Of a stretch of 64,000 nucleotides of DNA, positions 5,584 to 55,629 are shown piece after piece (position 1 is the stretch's first letter; each line of letters begins with the position of its first letter). The translations under genes were made by a program, and so were the position numbers. Origin of the DNA: Microvirga thermotolerans (GTDB taxonomy: Bacteria; Pseudomonadota; Alphaproteobacteria; Rhizobiales; Beijerinckiaceae). The stretch is from contig NZ_CP045423.1 of the NCBI RefSeq assembly GCF_009363855.1, positions 3,626,001-3,690,000 of the forward strand. Reading direction: 5' to 3'. The notes under the pieces were generated by a model. The model ran no database searches, was not told the DNA's origin, and saw nothing but the letters and a program-made list of their open reading frames with translations.

Positions 5584-8208
5584 ATGAATTTCGAGAAATA
5601 CACCGAGCGCGCGCGCGGCTTCGTGCAGGCGGCCCAGAACCTCGCCATGCGCGAGGGCCATCCGCAGCTGGCGCCCGGACATATGCTCAAGGTGCTGCTC
5701 GACGACCCGGAGGGCCTCTGCGCAGGCCTCATCGACAGGTCCGGCGGCCGCTCCCGCGAGGCGCACGCCGCGGTCGAGCAGTGGCTCGCCAAGCAGCCGA
5801 AGGTCTCCGGCGCCGCCTCGCAGCCGCAGGCGACGCGCGAGCTGATGCGCTTCTTCGACACCGCCGAGAAGGCCGCCGAGAAGGCCGGCGACTCCTACGT
5901 GACGGTCGAGCGCATGCTGCTGGCGCTCGCGCTCGAGAAGGACACCGAGGCCGGGCGCATCCTCGCCCAGGCCGGCGTGACGCCGCAGGGACTGAACGCG
6001 GCGATCAACGCCCTGCGCAAGGGCCGCACGGCGGACAATGCGACGGCGGAGAACGCCTACGACGCCCTGAAGAAATATGCCCGCGACCTGACGGAGGCGG
6101 CCCGCGAGGGCAAGCTCGATCCGGTGATCGGCCGCGACGAGGAGATCCGCCGCACGATCCAGGTGCTGTCGCGGCGCACGAAGAACAACCCGGTGCTCAT
6201 CGGCGAGCCCGGCGTCGGCAAGACCGCCATCGTCGAGGGCCTCGCTCTGCGCATCGTCAACGGCGACGTGCCCGAATCCCTGAAGGACAAGCAGCTGCTC
6301 GCCCTCGACATGGGCGCGCTCATCGCCGGCGCGAAATACCGCGGCGAGTTCGAGGAGCGCCTGAAGGCCGTGCTGCAGGAGGTCACGGCTGCCGAGGGCG
6401 GGATCATCCTGTTCATCGACGAGATGCACACGCTGGTGGGGGCCGGCAAGGCCGATGGCGCGATGGACGCCTCGAACCTGCTGAAGCCCGCGCTTGCCCG
6501 CGGCGAACTGCACTGCGTCGGCGCGACCACCCTCGACGAGTACCGCAAGCACGTGGAGAAGGACGCGGCGCTGGCCCGGCGCTTCCAGCCCGTCTTCGTG
6601 AACGAGCCCACGGTGGAGGACACGGTGTCGATCCTGCGCGGGCTCAAGGAGAAGTACGAGCAGCACCACGGCGTGCGCATCACCGACTCGGCGCTCGTCG
6701 CCGCGGCGACCCTCTCCAACCGCTACATCACCGACCGCTTCCTGCCGGACAAGGCCATCGACCTCGTGGACGAGGCCTCCTCGCGCCTGCGCATGCAGGT
6801 CGATTCCAAGCCCGAGGAGCTCGACAACATCGACCGCGAGATCGTGCGCCTGAAGATCGAGCAGGAAGCCCTGAAGAAGGAGACCGACGCCGCCTCCAAG
6901 GACCGGCTCGCGCGGCTCGAGAAGGAGCTGGCGGATCTGGAGGAGCGGTCGGCGGCGATCACCGCGCGCTGGAAGGCGGAGAAGGACAAGCTCGGCCGCG
7001 CCGCGGAACTCAAGAAGCGTCTCGACGAGGCGCGCACGCAGCTCGGCCAGGCGCAGCGCGCGGGCGACTGGGCGAAGGCGGGCGAGCTGTCCTACGGCAT
7101 CATTCCAGGGCTGGAGAAGGAGCTCGCCGAAACCGAGGCCAAGGGCGACGGCGCGGGCATGATGGAGGAGGCGGTGACGCCCGACCACGTGGCGCAGGTC
7201 GTCTCCCGCTGGACCGGGGTGCCGGTGGACAAGATGCTGGAGGGCGAGCGCGAGAAGCTGCTCCAGATGGAGCAGCAGCTGGCGAAGCGCGTCATCGGCC
7301 AGCGCGAGGCGGTGGAGGCGGTCTCGACCGCGGTGCGCCGCGCCCGCGCGGGCCTGCAGGACCCGAACCGGCCCATCGGCTCGTTCATGTTCCTTGGGCC
7401 TACCGGCGTCGGCAAGACCGAGCTGACGAAGGCTCTCGCCGAGTTCCTGTTCGACGACGAGACCGCCCTCGTGCGCCTCGACATGTCGGAGTACATGGAG
7501 AAGCACTCGGTGGCCCGCCTCATCGGCGCGCCTCCCGGCTATGTGGGCTACGAGGAGGGCGGCGCCCTGACCGAGGCGGTCCGCCGCCGGCCCTACCAGG
7601 TGGTGCTGTTCGACGAGATCGAGAAGGCGCATCCGGACGTGTTCAACGTGCTGCTCCAGGTGCTCGACGACGGGCGCCTCACGGATGGGCAGGGGCGCAC
7701 GGTGGACTTCCGCAACACGCTCATCGTCATGACTTCGAATCTCGGCGCCGAGTATCTGGTGAACCAGCCCGAGGGCCAGGACACCGACGCGGTGCGCGAC
7801 GAGGTGATGGGCGTGGTGCGCGCGCACTTCCGGCCCGAGTTCCTCAACCGCGTGGACGAGATCATCCTGTTCCACCGGCTGAAGCGCTCGGAGATGGGCG
7901 CCATCGTCGACATCCAGATCGGCCGCCTGCAGAAGCTCCTGGAGGATCGCAAGATCACCCTGACGCTCGATCCGGAGGCGCGCGAGTGGCTCGCAGAGAA
8001 GGGCTACGATCCGGCCTACGGCGCGCGGCCCCTGAAGCGCGTGATCCAGAAGAACGTGCAGGATCCGCTCGCGGAGCTGATCCTCGCCGGCGAGATCCAC
8101 GACGGCGAGACCGTCCCCGTCCATGCCGGGCCGCTCGGCCTCGTCATCGGCGACACGCCAGTGGCGAAGGCCGCCGAGAAGGTGCCGGAAGGCGTGCGGT
8201 TGAACTGA
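5584..8208 (+). CDS. clpB: ATP-dependent disaggregase chaperone ClpB
   Basis: An 874-aa Hsp100 hexamer that threads aggregated proteins through its pore and cooperates with DnaK. In order it has the Clp N-domain (1-145), AAA1 with Walker A GEPGVGKT (207-214) and Walker B IILFIDE, the coiled-coil M domain (about 410-530), and AAA2 with Walker A GPTGVGKT (605-612) and GYVGYEEGG pore loop. It ends in the sensor-2 GARPLKR. A GGAGGGG ribosome binding site precedes the ATG. Upstream, CTTGTTG at 5462 could be part of a heat-shock sigma site, but the -10 is unconvincing. A strong terminator follows. Confidence 0.98.
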
Positions 8209-9695: not shown

Positions 9696-10318
9696 GATGG
9701 GTCCTCTTCCCGTTGCACGATGGTCTTCACGAGCCCGGACAGGTGAGCGGCGAGCGCGGCGGCGGCCGCCTCCCCGTCGCCCGCCTCGCAGGCGGAAAGG
9801 ATCGCCCGGTGCTCGGTGTAAAGCGCCGCCCGCGCTTCTCCGCCGAGGGGCTGCAGGGCATAGATGCGCCGTCCCTCGCGGCGCAGGCCGTCGATCGTCC
9901 GGAGCAGGCGGTCGTTCCCGCAGCGGGCGTAGAGGTGCCGGTGGAAGAGGACGTCGAGTTCCTCGATCTCGACCGGGTCCTCCTCCTCGGCGAGCGCCTC
10001 GGCGGCCCGACGCGCCTTTCGCAGGACGGCGTCGTCCAGCCGCGGCAGGGAGAGACGCAGGGCATGGGTCTCGAGGGCGATGCGGATATCGACGAGCTCG
10101 GCCGCATCCTTGCGGCTCCATCCGGCCACCGCCAGGCTCCGGTCGGGCCGGCGGACGAGAATGCCCGCCACCAGGAGCCTTTCGAGCACCCGGCGCACCG
10201 GCTGTCGGCTCACCCCGAAGCGGGCGGCGAGCTCCTCCTGCTTGAGGAGCGTCCCCGAGGGCAGCGCGCCCCGCTCGATCTCCTCGCGCAAGGTCTGTTC
10301 GATTAGCTTTGGATCCAT
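9692..10318 (-). CDS. GntR family transcriptional regulator (FCD/FadR-like)
   Basis: A 208-aa repressor-type protein. The N-terminal winged helix covers residues 1-70 (LKQEELAARFGVSRQPVRRVLERL, with the GntR recognition helix). The C-terminal FCD helical domain carries metal-type residues (DIRIALETHALRL, LDVLFHRHLY, EHRAILSACEAGD). The ATG at 10318 lies inside a 20-bp perfect palindrome, which suggests autoregulation. An in-frame ATG at 10336 would add six residues and put the palindrome in the coding region. It is followed by osmC with a 4-base overlap. The effector is unknown. Confidence 0.9.
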   Translation of the reverse strand: MDPKLIEQTLREEIERGALPSGTLLKQEELAARFGVSRQPVRRVLERLLVAGILVRRPDRSLAVAGWSRKDAAELVDIRIALETHALRLSLPRLDDAVLRKARRAAEALAEEEDPVEIEELDVLFHRHLYARCGNDRLLRTIDGLRREGRRIYALQPLGGEARAALYTEHRAILSACEAGDGEAAAAALAAHLSGLVKTIVQREEDPS

Positions 10319-10327
10319 GGATCCAAA
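10308..10327. promoter_or_regulatory. Palindromic operator candidate at the gntR start
   Basis: TTTGGATCCATGGATCCAAA is a perfect 20-bp palindrome built from two overlapping TGGATCCA units and spans the gntR start codon. GntR-family proteins bind short palindromes, so this is the obvious autoregulatory site, by inference. Confidence 0.6.
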
Positions 10328-10542
10328 ACTAAACATTCTGGGAGCACCGTCAAGAAGTACGGAGGGCGGGAACCGGAAGGGCAAGGCAAGCACGGAACGA
10401 AGAGGCAGAAGAGACAAAGGGCACGACGAAAAGCCGTTCCGGCATCGGCTCCGGACCCTTTCCCTCGCCTCCTGTCCAGCGGGAGGACGGGCAGCGCGGG
10501 TACGGTCAGGCGGAGGCTGGCGATCCCCGTCGAAATCCTGCC

Positions 10543-10567
10543 GAAACAATCCCTGCGCGGGGGCGTT
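10543..10567 (+). promoter_or_regulatory. Near-consensus EcfG promoter
   Basis: GAAAC (10543-10547) and CGTT (10564-10567) are 16 bases apart, one mismatch from GGAAC-N16/17-CGTT. The DUF4142 gene starts 32 bases after the -10 element. Confidence 0.38.
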
Positions 10568-10598
10568 CGTCCCGTTCGAACCCATCGGGAGAATGCCG

Positions 10599-11327
10599 AT
10601 GTCCCGCCGTCTCGTCGTTGCCGGCCTTGCCGCCGTTCTCGCCTGCCCCGCCCTGGCGCAGCAGACGCCGCAGAACCAGGCCATTCCCTACCCTGTCGCG
10701 CCGCAGCCCGCCGAAACGCAGCCCAACCAGGGTCTCGGCCAGAACGCACAGGAGCGCGAGCAGCGGGTCCGGCAGGGCGGCGCGCCTCAGGACAGCCGGA
10801 CCCAGGCGCGCCAGGGCCAAGCCGGCGCTCCCGCCCAAATGGGGCAGCAGCAGTCCCAGGCCGACCGTGAGTACATCCAGCAGACGCTCGCCACCGGAAC
10901 CGTCTCGCTCCAGGCCTCCAACTTCGCCCTGTCGAAGGCACAGAACCCGCGCGTGAAGCAGTTCGCTCATTTCGAGGTCGCGGAGCAGAACACCCTCTCC
11001 GAGGTGCTGCGCTCCATGGCCGAGCCCGCCGCCACGTCCTCCACGACCGCAGGCGCGCAGCAGGCCGCCTCGACCGCGCCGGAGCTGCCGCAGGCCGATG
11101 CCGCCGCCATGGAACGCCGGTCGAAGGCGCAGGGCGGCGCGGCCTTCGACAAGGACTATGTCGCCATGCAGCTGAAGGGTCATCAGGACCTCCTCGCCGT
11201 TCAGGAGCGCTACCTCCAGGGCAATCCGGGCAACCGCGAGCTCATGAACGTGGCCAAGCTCGCGCGCGGGCAGATCCAGGAGCACATCGCCCTTCTCCAG
11301 GACATGCAGAAGGAAACCGGCCGCTGA
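10599..11327 (+). CDS. DUF4142 domain-containing exported protein
   Basis: A 242-aa protein with a cleavable signal peptide (MSRRLVVAGLAAVLACPALAQ). A Gln/Pro-rich linker runs to about residue 85. The DUF4142 four-helix, ferritin-like domain then starts at ADREYIQQTLATGTVSLQASNFAL and ends with QIQEHIALLQDMQ. The ATG at 10599 is preferred because GGGAGA lies at good spacing; the ATG six bases earlier is too close. DUF4142 proteins are periplasmic and often belong to stress regulons, but no biochemical role is established. An EcfG-like promoter lies just upstream. Confidence 0.85.
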   Translation: MSRRLVVAGLAAVLACPALAQQTPQNQAIPYPVAPQPAETQPNQGLGQNAQEREQRVRQGGAPQDSRTQARQGQAGAPAQMGQQQSQADREYIQQTLATGTVSLQASNFALSKAQNPRVKQFAHFEVAEQNTLSEVLRSMAEPAATSSTTAGAQQAASTAPELPQADAAAMERRSKAQGGAAFDKDYVAMQLKGHQDLLAVQERYLQGNPGNRELMNVAKLARGQIQEHIALLQDMQKETGR

Positions 11328-11359
11328 CGAGCCGCCTCGGGCCTTTTGCGCGGCGGGCC

Positions 11360-11385
11360 GGAACCCGCTTTCGCGAAGGGGCGTT
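11360..11385 (+). promoter_or_regulatory. Consensus EcfG (general stress) promoter
   Basis: GGAAC (11360-11364) and CGTT (11382-11385) are separated by 17 bases, a perfect match to the alphaproteobacterial EcfG sigma-factor consensus. The downstream gene starts 61 bases later. Confidence 0.7.
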
Positions 11386-11446
11386 GGCCCTGCAAGGAGC
11401 GGGCATCGGGCCCGCCGCAACGACAAGACAACAACAGGAGTTTTCC

Positions 11447-12067
11447 ATGGCGCAGGACAAGCGAGGCCGTCCTCCGGAACCGGACGTGGACGAGGTTCTC
11501 GACGAGCTGCAGGCGGAAGAGGGCGGAGACGACTTCGTCGCCGGACCGACCCAGCGCAACGAAGTCGGCAACACCAAGCGGGCCGCGGCGAAGGCCACCG
11601 GCCTCATGGGCGCCACCAAGAAGCTCGATCCCGATCTCGACATCGCCCATGTGGACGACGGCCGCGTGACGAGCGGCTCCGGCGCCGGGATCCGCAGCTT
11701 CCGGGAAGTGCCCCCCGAACAGGGTGCGCAGAACGCGAGCCTGACGCTCTCCAATGCCGAAATCGCCGAGAACGTGCCGACCACCGCCCTCAAGAGCCCG
11801 GCGACTCCGCCCGCGCGGACCCGGGAGAGGACGGCGGGCCTCGGCACGGGAATCTCGCCCGACTCGGGCCGCCAGCGCGTGCCCGCTCCCGGCAACGCGG
11901 TCACGGCTCCCAAGGGCACGTTCGTGCGCGGGCACCCCACCGCGACGCAGGCGGGAGGCCGCTCGCAATCCTCCACGGGGGACGAGAAGCCGCCGAAGCG
12001 CTCCGCCCGTGGCGACGGCCCCCAGACGGACAGGCCTCTCTCGAAAGGCGGCCGCGAGGAGCGCTGA
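11447..12067 (+). CDS. Hydrophilic disordered-type protein, unknown function
   Basis: A 206-aa protein whose ATG at 11447 is preceded by ACAGGAG. It is rich in Gly, Ala, Pro, Thr and charged residues. It has an acidic N-terminal segment (DVDEVLDELQAEEGGDDF) and a long low-complexity basic tail, with no signal peptide or membrane segment. I do not recognise a domain. The perfect EcfG promoter 61 bases upstream suggests a general-stress protein, possibly a protectant, which is inference. Confidence 0.75.
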   Translation: MAQDKRGRPPEPDVDEVLDELQAEEGGDDFVAGPTQRNEVGNTKRAAAKATGLMGATKKLDPDLDIAHVDDGRVTSGSGAGIRSFREVPPEQGAQNASLTLSNAEIAENVPTTALKSPATPPARTRERTAGLGTGISPDSGRQRVPAPGNAVTAPKGTFVRGHPTATQAGGRSQSSTGDEKPPKRSARGDGPQTDRPLSKGGREER

Positions 12068-12287
12068 GGGAAAAGGCCCTCGCTCCTCTCACCTTGACCC
12101 GCCGTGCGCCGGCCGGCAGCCTCGGCGCGCGTTCGGCATCATGCGCCCGGCGCAGGCCGGTTGCGCATTCTGATCTTTCCCTTGCGTAAGATGCAGTGAT
12201 ACCTCTTCGATAGGCCGTCGCGGACCCCGATCCGCGGCGGGCCCGAAAGGCCGTTGCCGGAAGATCATCGCAAGGAGAGGAAACCCC

Positions 12288-51114: not shown

Positions 51115-52449
51115 ATGGTCGGGCGAACGCATGTGGTGGGAGCCGGGGTCGCAGGATTGAGCGCAGCCCTGTCGGCGCTTTCTCAGGACTGTCCCGTCAC
51201 GCTCTACGAGGCGGCGCCCGGGACCCGAAGTCGCGACGGCGGCAGGTCTCCCGAGGGCGAGACCCATTCCTGCACAACGGGCATGGACGTCCTGTTCGCC
51301 GCCGATTGTCGCGCGATGGCACTGCTCAGGAGTATCGGCGCGCACGCACGATGGATCGCACCGGAGCCTGAAGGGATCCCGCTCTACGATGCCGGGAGCG
51401 GCGGACTGCGTCGGGTCGGCTTGTCGCCATGGTCCTGGCTCGCTCCGGACCGGCGACCTCCGGACATGCGCCTGTCCGATCTCGTGCGGCTGACGCGTCT
51501 CGCCTTCTCGAAGGAGGACCGGTCCTTGGGCGACGTTGCGAGCGGTGGGACGCCGCTTGCAGAACTGCTGGAGCCTGTGGCCGGCGCGGCCTTGAACCTG
51601 CGCCTCTGCGACATGCCGGCGCGCCAAGTGGGACAGGTGCTCGGGCGCTTCCTCTGTCCGGGAGCGGCAAGGCTTCTCGTCCCGAAGCGGGGCCTCGCCG
51701 AGGATCTGCTGGAACCGGCGCTGCAGGAGGTCCGGTCCCGTGGGGCAACGGTCCGGCTCGGCGAACATCTGCGATCCGTCCTCGTCAACGACGGACGCGC
51801 CGTCGGCCTCGTCTTCACCGACCATGCGACGATCCTGGGGGCGGACGACCGCGTGATCCTCGCTCTGCCTCCGGAGGAGATCGGCCGCCTCCTCCCCTGC
51901 GTCGAAATGCCGAGCCGGTGCGCCTCCACCCTGAACGTGCACTTCCGCGTAACGGGGGCCCATTGTCCCCGCTTCGTCGCATTCAGGGGAACTCTGGCGA
52001 AGCGGGCGCTCGTCCGCTCCGGTCACGCATGCGTCACCGTCGCGGCGGCAGAGTCCACGGCCATCCGAGACAGAGCAAAGCTCGCTTCGCGCATCTGGCG
52101 GGAGGTCGCGCCGGGCTTCCGGGCTCTCGGCCTGAACGTCCCGGCCGACGTGCCGCCGGAGGCCTGCGTGGCGCAGGGCCCAAGAATTCCGATCCGGCGG
52201 GACGATGAGCCCCCGCGGTCCCCGCCCCTGCGCCCGCTCGCCAATCTCGTCCTCGCGGGAGACTGGCTCGGTCCGCGGCCCGGAACCATCGAAGGCGCGG
52301 TGCTGGCGGGCGAGCACGCGGTGTCCGTCCTGCGGCACGCCCGGCCGGGAGCGCCCGTCCGCCGGGCCTGCTCCGCAGGTGCGCGAAGCGGCATGGCCGA
52401 TGCCGTGCCGATCAGCCTGCGAACGCCTCCTGAGCAGGCAGCGCGGTAA
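51115..52449 (+). CDS. FAD-dependent oxidoreductase (HpnE/phytoene-desaturase-like)
   Basis: A 444-aa amine-oxidase-fold flavoprotein. The N-terminal FAD motif is [18 protein letters not shown] with the acidic end TLYEAAPG. The middle has the [17 protein letters not shown] block, and the C-terminal FAD clamp is [27 protein letters not shown], resembling hydroxysqualene dehydroxylase HpnE and carotenoid desaturases. No hopanoid or carotenoid genes are adjacent, so the substrate is open. GAGGGCAGAG precedes the ATG. The last 38 bases overlap the convergent MATE gene. The C-terminal 30 residues are Ala/Arg-rich and untypical. Confidence 0.82.
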
Positions 52450-53827
52450 GGCCCAGGCGGTCGCGCCGCAGCCAACGCCAGAGCATGAGAGACGCGACGG
52501 TTGCCAGCCCCGCCGCCAGCCCGATCCATATTCCGACTCCCCGCAGGCCCGTTCCGAAGGCGAGCGCCACGCCGAGAGGCAGGCCGATCCCCCAGTAGCC
52601 GAGCGCCGCGAACATCATCGGCACGCGCGTGTCCTGGAGGCCGCGGAGCATTCCGGCACCGACCGCCTGCGCGCCGTCCGCCAGCTGGAACACCGCGGCG
52701 AGGGTCAGGAAGGAGATGGCGAACTGGAGAACGGGTGCGTTGCGCGGATCGGCGAGATCGAGGAAGGCGCCGATGAGGAGGCGCGGCGCGAAGAGCATGA
52801 GCATCGCCGTCACCACCATGAACCCGACGCCCAGCGCGTAGGCCGTCCACCCGGCCCGGGTGACGCCCTGCGCATCCTGGGCGCCGAAGGCGCGCCCGAC
52901 CCGCACCGTCACGGCCTGGCCGAGGCCGAAGGGAACCATGAAGCAGAACGAGGCGATCTGGAGCGCGATGGCGTGCGCGGCGAGCTCGTCGGCCCCGAGC
53001 CACCCCATGAACAGCGCCGCCGCGTTGAAGATCGTAACCTCGAAAGCCACCGTGAGGCCGATGGGCGCGCCGATGCGCCACAGGGTGCGATAGCGCTGCC
53101 AGTCCGGCCGCCAGAAGCGCCCGAACAGGTGATAGCGCCTGAAACGCCGGTCGCATGTGACGACCAGGACGAGGCTCAGGAACATGAAGGTGCTCGAGAT
53201 CACGGTCCCGATTCCGGTGCCGACCAGGCCGAGGGCGGGCAGGCCGAACTTCCCGAGCATGAGCACGTAGGCGGCCCCGAAATTGACCGGCACGGCGAGA
53301 ATGCCGATGACCAGCGCCCATCCGGGCCGCTCCAGCGCGGAGAGGAACGAGCGCAGGACCAGGGAGAACAGAAACGGCAGAAGGCTCCACTGCAGCGCGC
53401 GGATATAGCCGCCGGCGGCATGCGCGAGGGCCGGCTCCTGGCCCATGGCCCGGAGGATCGCCTCTCCGTTCCAGGCCAAGAGCCAGATCGGAATGGCGAC
53501 CGTGATGGAGGCCCAGAATCCCTGTCTCACCGTGCGGCGCACGTCGCGGACCGAGTGACGCTTGCGGCCGAGTTCCTCGGCGATCAGCGGCGAGGTGGCG
53601 TTGACGAGTCCTATTCCGAAGATCAGGAGAGCGAAGTAGAGATTCGTCCCCAAGGCACCCGCGGCAAGGGCCTCGGAGCCCAGCCAGCCCATGAGGATGA
53701 CGTCCGACGTCATGAGGGCGTTCTGGGCCAGATTGGTCAGGACGAGGGGCCAGCTGAGCGACAGGGTCGCGCGCAGCTCCGCGACCCAGGCGGATCTTTC
53801 CGGTTTGGACATGCCGAGGATGTTCAT
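52412..53827 (-). CDS. MATE family efflux transporter (NorM-like)
   Basis: A 471-aa integral membrane exporter with twelve predicted helices in two MatE repeats. Family features are [27 protein letters not shown] at the first helix, [22 protein letters not shown] and the second repeat [26 protein letters not shown]. Such pumps export drugs, dyes or metabolites with Na+ or H+. It is divergent from the amidoligase gene with a 126-base gap. Its 3' end overlaps the oxidoreductase gene. The cargo is unknown. Confidence 0.95.
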
Positions 53828-53953: not shown

Positions 53954-54931
53954 ATGGCGCAGGCCGCGCTCCCGACCTCTATCGAGTTTCTGCTCCCGCC
54001 GACGCTCCGCAACGCGGCGGGGCAGGTTCGCACGGTCGGAGTCGAAGTCGAGTTTGCGGGACCCACCGCCGAGGCGGCGGTGCAGGCCGTCCGGCAAGCC
54101 TTCGGCGGCAGGATCGTCGAGGAGGACCCGCATGCCTACCGCCTGACGGGATCTCAGGTGGGCGATCTTTCCATCGAGCTCGACAGCCGGATGCTGCACC
54201 CGGCCAAGCGCAGCGGAGGCAAGGCGGGCCTCCTGCCGCGGATCGCGGCCTGGTTCGGCTTCGCCGCCAGCTACATCGTTCCCTGCGAGCTCGTGACGTC
54301 GCCGGTCCCCATGGACCGGCTGCAGAACGTCGACAGGATTCTCGAGGTCCTGCGCGGCATCGGCGCGAAGGGCACCCAGGATGCGCCGTTCTATGCCTTC
54401 GGGCTTCACTTCAATCCCGAGATTCCGAGGCAGGATGCGGCGACGGCGCTCGCCGTCCTGAAGAGCTTCGTCCTGCTCAACCCGTGGCTGCGGCGAGAGG
54501 TTGCGCCGGACATCACCCGCGACCTGCTCGGCTTCGCCGCGCCCTTCCCCCCGGCTTACGTGCGGAAGATCGCCGCGCCGGATTACTGGCCGGACATGGA
54601 CACCTTCATCGACGACTACCTGGCCGCGAATCCGACGCGGAACCGCGACCTGGACCTGCTGCCGCTGCTCCATCACTTCGATGCGCGCCGCGTGCGGGAG
54701 GCGCTGCCCAACGAGAAGATCAACGGGCGTCCGACCTTCCACTACCGGCTTCCCGATGCGCGTGTCAGCGACGCAGGCTGGAGCATCGCACCCGAATGGA
54801 ACCGCTGGGTCGCCGTGGAGCGGCTGGCCGAGGACCGGGACCGCCTGAACGCCGTAGGCTCCGCCTTTCTGGCCTTCGCCGGAGAGGACAAGAGCTGGGC
54901 CAACATCGTAGAGCGGGCTGCGCTGCAATGA
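53954..54931 (+). CDS. Putative amidoligase (COOH-NH2 ligase, glutamine-synthetase-like fold)
   Basis: A 325-aa protein of the amidoligase_2 family. It has an early acidic GVEVEFAGP, SIELDSRML, CELVTSPVPMDRLQ and FGLHFNPEIP, positions of the metal- and ATP-binding acids and histidine of this fold. Such enzymes are predicted to join a carboxylate to an amine with ATP. CGGAG stands 6 bases before the ATG. Its stop overlaps the start of a class-I amidotransferase gene by 4 bases, so the two are coupled and probably act in one pathway. The product is unknown. Confidence 0.85.
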   Translation: MAQAALPTSIEFLLPPTLRNAAGQVRTVGVEVEFAGPTAEAAVQAVRQAFGGRIVEEDPHAYRLTGSQVGDLSIELDSRMLHPAKRSGGKAGLLPRIAAWFGFAASYIVPCELVTSPVPMDRLQNVDRILEVLRGIGAKGTQDAPFYAFGLHFNPEIPRQDAATALAVLKSFVLLNPWLRREVAPDITRDLLGFAAPFPPAYVRKIAAPDYWPDMDTFIDDYLAANPTRNRDLDLLPLLHHFDARRVREALPNEKINGRPTFHYRLPDARVSDAGWSIAPEWNRWVAVERLAEDRDRLNAVGSAFLAFAGEDKSWANIVERAALQ

Positions 54932-55629
54932 CCAGGCCGCTGATCGGCGTCACAACCTCGCGCGAAGGGGGATGGCGCAGCTACTTCATGCATCGCCTCG
55001 CCCTCGCCCGCGCCGGCGCCCGCGCGGTCAGGCTGATGGCCGGACATGCGCCGCCCGAGGAACCCCTCCGGGGACTGGTGATCGGCGGCGGCGACGATAT
55101 CGGCGCCGAGATCTATGGCGGGAAGGTCATCCCCGACGTGCGGATCGATCCCGAGCGGGACAGGCTGGAGCTCAGCCTGCTGAGGGCGGCGCTGCCGGCG
55201 GAGCTGCCGGTTCTCGGAATCTGCAGGGGCTCGCAGATGATCAACGTAGCCCTGGGCGGAACGCTGCACACGGACATCTACGAGGTTTACGTGCAGGCCC
55301 CCAGGATGCGCACCGTCCTCCCCCGAAAGCGCGTCACGGTCACGCCCGGATCGCGCCTCGACCGCATTCTCCGGTGCAACCCCTGCCTGGTGAACGCGCT
55401 CCATCATCAATCCGTCGACCGTGTCGGGACGGGCCTCGCCATTGCGGCGCAGGACGAGAGCGGAATCGTCCAGGCCGTCGAGGGCCGCGGCTCCGCCTTC
55501 CTTCTGGGCGTTCAGTGGCATCCGGAGCTGCTGATCTGGAAGCGGCCGCAACAGCGCCTGTTCGAAGCCTTGGTGGAAGCTGCCCTGCAAAGTCCCGCCA
55601 AGCTCGAGGCCGCCATGGCCCTGGCGTGA
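54928..55629 (+). CDS. Gamma-glutamyl-gamma-aminobutyrate hydrolase family protein (peptidase C26)
   Basis: A 233-aa class-I glutamine-amidotransferase-fold enzyme. The nucleophile cysteine is in LGICRGSQMINVALGG (about residue 105), and the His-x-Glu pair in LLGVQWHPELL. The N-terminus PLIGVTTSREGG is shortened compared with PuuD, whose length is about 250. C26 enzymes hydrolyse gamma-glutamyl amides. The 4-base overlap with the amidoligase gene suggests that it edits or removes the gamma-glutamyl group of that enzyme's product. This is inference. Confidence 0.88.
   Translation: MTRPLIGVTTSREGGWRSYFMHRLALARAGARAVRLMAGHAPPEEPLRGLVIGGGDDIGAEIYGGKVIPDVRIDPERDRLELSLLRAALPAELPVLGICRGSQMINVALGGTLHTDIYEVYVQAPRMRTVLPRKRVTVTPGSRLDRILRCNPCLVNALHHQSVDRVGTGLAIAAQDESGIVQAVEGRGSAFLLGVQWHPELLIWKRPQQRLFEALVEAALQSPAKLEAAMALA

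Follow-up and report, generated by a model that had tools for sequence, protein, structure and literature searches.

The locus examined here, two overlapping genes in a 64,000-nucleotide stretch of Microvirga thermotolerans DNA (the window), raises the question of what a predicted ligase and a predicted hydrolase make and unmake together, and whether the divergent MATE transporter gene beside them is part of the same pathway. The reading that we favor, with a probability of about 0.6, is that the pair, AL–C26, is an ATP-dependent carboxylate-amine (probably γ-glutamyl) ligase and its hydrolase, like PuuA/PuuD or NpaA1/NpaA2.

Layout and conservation of the gene pair

The features of the locus are collected in Table 1. 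The Pfam matches lie well above cut-off for AL (Amidoligase_2, 183.4 bits; cut-off 22), for C26 (Peptidase_C26, 153 bits; cut-off 20.5), and for the product of the MATE gene (MatE, 191.6 bits; cut-off 24.9), which is separated from AL by 126 bases. The response-regulator gene downstream of C26 (55652-57199, minus strand) is convergent with the pair, and AL–C26 is therefore a closed two-gene unit. This convergent gene encodes a histidine-kinase/receiver hybrid, in which Pfam detects the receiver domain only; its identity among the fetched Microvirga loci is 38-65%, with 67-91% for MATE, AL, C26, and the neighboring glucosidase. Comparison with the nearest genus genome (G029) gives a dS of 0.95 and a dN of 0.067 for AL (dN/dS ~0.07) and a dS of 0.86 and a dN of 0.106 for C26 (dN/dS ~0.12); both genes are under purifying selection.

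Table 1. Positions of the gene pair and its MATE neighbor in the window, and of YqaA genes that follow the pair at five gammaproteobacterial loci (numbered within each locus)
Feature	Position	Strand	Basis
AL: Amidoligase_2 (GS-fold carboxylate-amine ligase family), 325 aa	53954..54931	+	Pfam, model, active-site residues
C26: class-I glutamine-amidotransferase-fold protein like γ-glutamyl hydrolases, 233 aa	54928..55629	+	Pfam, model, C99/H198/E200
ATGA stop/start overlap of AL and C26, 4 bases	54928..54931	+	sequence
MATE (NorM-like) transporter, Microvirga synteny neighbor, judged outside the unit	52412..53827	-	Pfam MatE and comparison of loci
YqaA (DedA/VTT) after AL–C26, L252	7646-8089
YqaA (DedA/VTT) after AL–C26, L253	7686-8129
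YqaA (DedA/VTT) after AL–C26, L254	4233-4655
YqaA (DedA/VTT) after AL–C26, L255	7640-8062
YqaA (DedA/VTT) after AL–C26, L259	4881-5312

Within the genus, an AL ortholog is found in 34 of 37 genomes (own included), and in all 24 genomes with wide flanks, a subset of the 33 non-own genomes with the ortholog, C26 follows AL on the same strand at a spacing of -4 or -1. The survey beyond the genus used three overlapping samples of 385, 398, and 369 genomes, in which AL occurs in 25, 22, and 18, respectively; together these amount to 57 AL loci in 56 different non-own genomes, all of which were fetched. C26 is the next gene downstream on the same strand at 52 of the 57, the exceptions being L144, L156, L187, L190, and L250. 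AL precedes C26 on the same strand at every one of the 60 paired loci, at spacings from -34 to +73, the commonest being -4 (19/60). Genes at the compared loci were called with a home-made codon model, so that the starts of C26 and of some neighboring genes are unsure. The pairing is not chance; the pair is genuine and occurs widely across Proteobacteria. An earlier note on this DNA had given the coordinates, strands, four-base overlap, 126-base gap, and closed two-gene arrangement as we find them, and had named pairing confined to this strain as the result that would speak against it; the pair is conserved well outside the strain.

The fixed order and overlap fit equally well a two-subunit glutamine-dependent amidotransferase, in which C26 would free ammonia from glutamine and AL would ligate that ammonia to an activated carboxylate, as GatD serves MurT. 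In keeping with this alternative, which we consider unlikely, and equally with the favored reading, is the correlation between AL and C26 distances (r 0.72, with 0 of 2000 permutations as high), which common descent alone could explain. The alignments comprise the window sequence plus 56 of 71 loci for AL and the window sequence plus 46 of 60 loci for C26; those dropped from the AL alignment were 14 loci, mostly close kin of retained rows, and the unpaired L156, which has an odd-looking frame. A phage origin of AL was rejected, as AL has no match at E 1e-5 among 50,697 phage records.

Predicted folds and active sites of AL and C26

Eight AL residues are invariant over the 57 aligned sequences: E33, D77, E112, N154, D234, R259, H263, and R265. 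The signature of the carboxylate-amine/ammonia ligase superfamily, as outlined in PMC2588565, consists of a GhExE motif on strand 1, acidic residues on strands 2 and 3, and [HDQ]x[NH] on strand 4. In AL, the GhExE motif (G29, 57/57; E31, 56/57 with one gap; E33, 57/57) falls on core strand 1, predicted at 27-35. The acids of strands 2 and 3 are E75 (52/57), in the predicted strand 72-76, D77 (57/57), one residue past that strand, and E112 (57/57), in the predicted strand 111-115. The [HDQ]x[NH] motif on core strand 4 (predicted at 151-156) takes the form [HQ]xN in AL, with H152 in 43 and Q in 14 of the 57 sequences and N154 in all. For the strand-6 motif (Polar-x-[RK]-x2-D), the candidate residues are H263 and R265 (57/57), and position 268 holds N or D in every paired row (47/47) and in no solo row (0/10); according to the same signature, AL has HxR where other superfamily members have Ex[RK] (PMC2588565). 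R259 (57/57) and R231 (53/57) are candidates only for the strand-5 arginine and the loop arginine before strand 5. The aligned residues appear to fit the superfamily signature, and motifs, size, and neighbor together suggest that AL belongs to the “new carboxylate-amine ligase” family of PMC2588565. The metal-binding acids, whose absence the earlier note had named as the other result against it, are present (E31 in 56/57; E33, D77, and E112 throughout), and with the pairing at 52 of 57 survey loci its ligase/hydrolase couple stands.

The predicted AL model (pLDDT 91.9) has a glutamine-synthetase fold. Every one of the 50 matches listed for it is a glutamine synthetase (Z 11.8-12.9, rmsd 3.0-4.3, 197-223 residues aligned), and one of them is the 1-naphthylamine glutamine synthetase of strain JS3066 (8wwv; Z 12.3), which is NpaA1 by its entry title and PMC11335346. 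A Foldseek search of AL against the PDB returned no match at E <= 0.001, the best row being YbdK (E 6.9e-3), which is weak alone, and the AL sequence searched against solved chains, glutamine synthetases included, up to E 1 matched a single unrelated peroxidase at 0.74.

C26 has seven residues that are invariant over 47 sequences, C99, H198, E200, Q103, N156, H159, and Q161. We take C99, H198, and E200 to be the Cys-His-Glu triad of the fold. N156, H159, and Q161 form an NxxHxQ motif (47/47) that is common to PuuD, SpuA, and lin1909, the motif being taken from our alignments with these three proteins, with no published definition. Among the matches listed for the C26 model (pLDDT 92.6), the best are lin1909 (Z 30.7), PuuD (30.6), and SpuA (28.6-30.0), and glutaminase subunits and domains reach Z <= 22.0; in the models, PuuD and SpuA are thus clearly better matches for C26 than glutaminase subunits are, which argues against the amidotransferase. 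On the other side, glutaminases, too, share the C26 fold, and the stand-alone human γ-glutamyl hydrolase (1l9x) matches with a Z of only 19.8, below several glutaminases. The titles of the matched SpuA entries name glutamate and a glutamyl thioester, in agreement with thioester chemistry for C26. Against the PuuD equivalog model (NCBIfam PRK11366), C26 scores 79.4 bits, far under the cut-off of 266.

A further line of evidence comes from AL genes that lack the hydrolase. Microvirga has a second, diverged AL in 21 places, of which 15 were fetched (L035-L049), and C26 is found at 0/15. The alignment contains 10 solo rows (L043, L049, L108, L144, L187, L190, L230, L231, L233, and L250), all of which keep the metal-binding acids and have Q, L, T, V, or G at position 268, as opposed to N or D in paired rows. 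That AL position 268 tracks the presence of the hydrolase in this alignment is new here. The unrooted AL tree places every one of the 10 solo rows in one group (100/100) with the window AL and its relatives from the Microvirga family, so the solo rows do not count as 10 independent observations. Resolution of the C26 tree is poor near the Microvirga group, and this tree is compatible with co-inheritance. The simplest story would be that the solo lines lost C26 with a changed active site. Since solo AL genes exist, C26 is not obligatory for AL; that they retain the metal-binding residues with no C26 nearby tells against a two-subunit amidotransferase.

Two solo loci have contexts of their own. 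Genome G1139 carries both a solo AL (L250) and a paired AL (L256), the latter followed by a YqaA remnant, with an intact YqaA on another contig. On a Rhodovastum plasmid (L273, 3013-4963), a metallophosphoesterase gene precedes a solo amidoligase, with conjugation genes alongside.

Neighbors of the pair

The earlier note had named the MATE transporter as a possible exit route for the product of the pair. A biosynthetic cassette of this kind draws on the position of the MATE gene, divergent beside AL in 24 of 24 Microvirga genomes with wide flanks, and on single other loci at which a transporter gene adjoins the pair, such as an EamA gene in an order-mate, which overlaps C26 by four bases to give a three-gene operon (L050, 6682-7581), and a LysE gene upstream of the pair in L162. 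However, the pair is absent from 3 of the 37 genus genomes (G005, G012, and G023), in which the MATE, response-regulator, and glucosidase genes adjoin and the MATE reading frame is intact (3/3). In another genus of the same family, conversely, the pair occurs at both loci (G829, G863) with none of these three genes in the DNA fetched around it, which extends ~8 kb on the AL side of each and ~7 kb (G829) or 1.4 kb (G863) on the C26 side. Elsewhere, the families that match at least 2 of the 111 neighbor proteins from 48 paired loci do not include MatE. Because the gene is kept where the pair is lost, missing beside the pair in the other genus, and non-recurrent elsewhere, we regard MATE as neighboring synteny in Microvirga and reject it as a partner of the pair; export of the product by this transporter is very improbable. 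Of the three-gene neighborhood that had been put forward for checking, the pair is what is conserved, and the MATE linkage is synteny inside Microvirga.

Transporters in general fare no better. With 8 near-duplicate loci removed beforehand, immediate neighbors with at least four predicted transmembrane segments numbered 20 of 64, versus 19 of 159 genes further away (p 0.0015), in a test picked after the data had been seen. A fresh gammaproteobacterial sample under the same rule, with the gene-caller weighting slightly changed, gave 1 of 30 versus 8 of 105, and the enrichment was therefore dropped.

A single family recurs among the 111 neighbor proteins, the VTT domain (8/111), every other family being matched by three or fewer. 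Amine oxidase, aldehyde dehydrogenase, and aminotransferase are not among the families matched by at least two of these proteins, and the window's unit contains no amine oxidase or aldehyde dehydrogenase gene. In the fresh gammaproteobacterial sample, a YqaA gene lies directly after C26 at 5 of 15 paired loci, from five families, with an overlap of one to four bases or a gap of 12 bases (Table 1). A YqaA remnant follows the pair in L256; YqaA lies ~2 kb further on in L263 and L264, which are of one genus, and 148 bases downstream of the pair in L113. E. coli YqaA (L266) is 40% identical to the YqaA of L252. A YqaA match at E 1e-10 is present in 165 of 339 sampled gammaproteobacterial genomes, the weaker ones of which may be other DedA proteins. 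The link is not general: of the 30 gammaproteobacterial loci with the best YqaA matches, 5 are beside AL–C26, and none (0/30) has a gshA gene detectable with the E. coli query within 1.5 kb. In the window's own genome, there is only a weak YqaA-like match (33%, E 5.6e-6). The YqaA–pair link is thus real in some lineages and absent in Microvirga, and YqaA (DedA/VTT family) as a recurring third gene in some Gammaproteobacteria is new here.

Two other loci have different surroundings. In L106 (Azospirillum), the pair sits between same-strand histidine-kinase genes (6208-7926 and 9858-12173), and genes of like size flank the pair in L102. On a Rhodobacteraceae plasmid (L277, 2296-3825), the pair has an aldehyde dehydrogenase gene 148 bases upstream, and before that gene comes one for an amino-acid ABC transporter binding protein.

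The YqaA neighbor bears on a suggestion made in section 6 of PMC2588565, in which AL would make a glutathione-like peptide or a peptide secondary metabolite that C26 would trim or recycle as a peptidase. Besides the three-gene form, this suggestion is in line with the position of E. coli yqaA, directly upstream of gshA, which encodes another γ-glutamyl ligase, and with the 3 of 10 searched genomes (G1095, G926, and G798), these three being gammaproteobacterial and having the pair, that gave no GCS2 match in a search limited to that family, the other glutathione-ligase family being PF04262. Against it, the 0/30 count led us to reject a general YqaA–gshA tie, and GCS2 ligases are present in all three genus genomes that lack AL. 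As the window's own genome likewise has two further GCS2-family ligases, AL is not needed as the Microvirga glutathione ligase, and that role was rejected; we regard a glutathione-like or other peptide product as distinctly unlikely.

More doubtful still is a reading that joins the YqaA and position-268 observations, in which the pair would make and break the γ-glutamyl amide of a membrane-linked or membrane-handled amine, YqaA would move or handle that amide, and a solo ligase with a changed position 268 and no hydrolase would form a changed product. As background, some DedA/VTT members have been proposed to flip a lipid carrier, in the account given in PMC10127716, and a Rhodanobacter YqaA is described as affecting indium resistance (PMC8679861).

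Proposed chemistry and known systems

Returning to the favored ligase–hydrolase reading, it builds on the genes, predicted folds, conserved active-site residues, and conserved pairing, which are established. AL would activate a carboxylate with ATP, most likely the γ-carboxylate of glutamate, and join it to an amine; C26 would act on AL's own product, hydrolyzing the γ-glutamyl amide via a cysteine thioester. With no oxidation enzymes alongside, the two would form a make-and-unmake couple that tags an amine transiently, stores it, or detoxifies it. Counting against this reading are the lack of recurrent oxidation or aminotransferase neighbors, unlike in amine-catabolic clusters, the gene order and overlap shared with the amidotransferase, the solo AL genes, the low score of human 1l9x, and the absence of a Foldseek match to AL in the PDB at E <= 0.001.

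In terms of precedent, the pairing is already known, as PMC2588565 (2008) describes, in the part concerned with this family, a “new carboxylate-amine ligase” with a GAT-like thiol-peptidase neighbor in proteobacteria; size, signature motifs, and GAT-like neighbor are alike, and in these features we found no difference. The undescribed pathway of the earlier note is accordingly narrowed, the adjective applying to the product only. Our literature search, whose coverage left out most subscription papers, returned no experimentally found product for the AL family. Amidoligases are reportedly treated further by Iyer et al. in 2009. The window pair itself is ordinary, a further copy of a type of unit on record since 2008. 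Staying together in widely differing genomic surroundings, the GS-fold ligase and its hydrolase constitute a self-contained chemical module, for which the three-gene YqaA form and the contrast at position 268 offer handles for a substrate search. These two features may also provide YqaA, a DedA protein, with a partner in metabolism.

Among known systems, MurT is a Mur ligase, and GATase PF13522 we take to be class II. MurT/GatD-type amidotransferases, as presented in PMC5871853, resemble the pair in combining a synthase with a class-I GAT-fold subunit and differ from it in that glutaminase subunits are less close to C26 than PuuD and SpuA are. For phage amidoligases (PF12224), PMC10580990 reports an association with PF13522, a different partner from C26. 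The arylamine-glutamylating systems AtdA1/AtdA2 and NpaA1/NpaA2 are, like the pair, a ligase with a GAT-like protein, and NpaA2, the GAT-like neighbor of NpaA1, serves as precedent for the proposed couple, being said in PMC11335346 to be likely to reverse glutamylation; as described, these systems include a dioxygenase, unlike AL–C26, and the naphthylamine glutamine synthetase chains are 485-488 residues long, versus 325 for AL. For the polyamine system, the resemblance lies in the enzymes and the difference in sequence and context. PuuA is a GS-fold ligase, and PuuA/PuuD, SpuA, and the pair have in common a GS-fold ligase with a C26-fold hydrolase, as the structural matches of C26 to PuuD and SpuA suggest; AL, however, has no sequence match to solved glutamine synthetases, and C26 falls short of the PuuD cut-off. 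In a Puu-type operon, amine oxidase and aldehyde dehydrogenase are encoded with the ligase and hydrolase, whereas beside AL–C26 neither recurs, the aldehyde dehydrogenase of L277 excepted.
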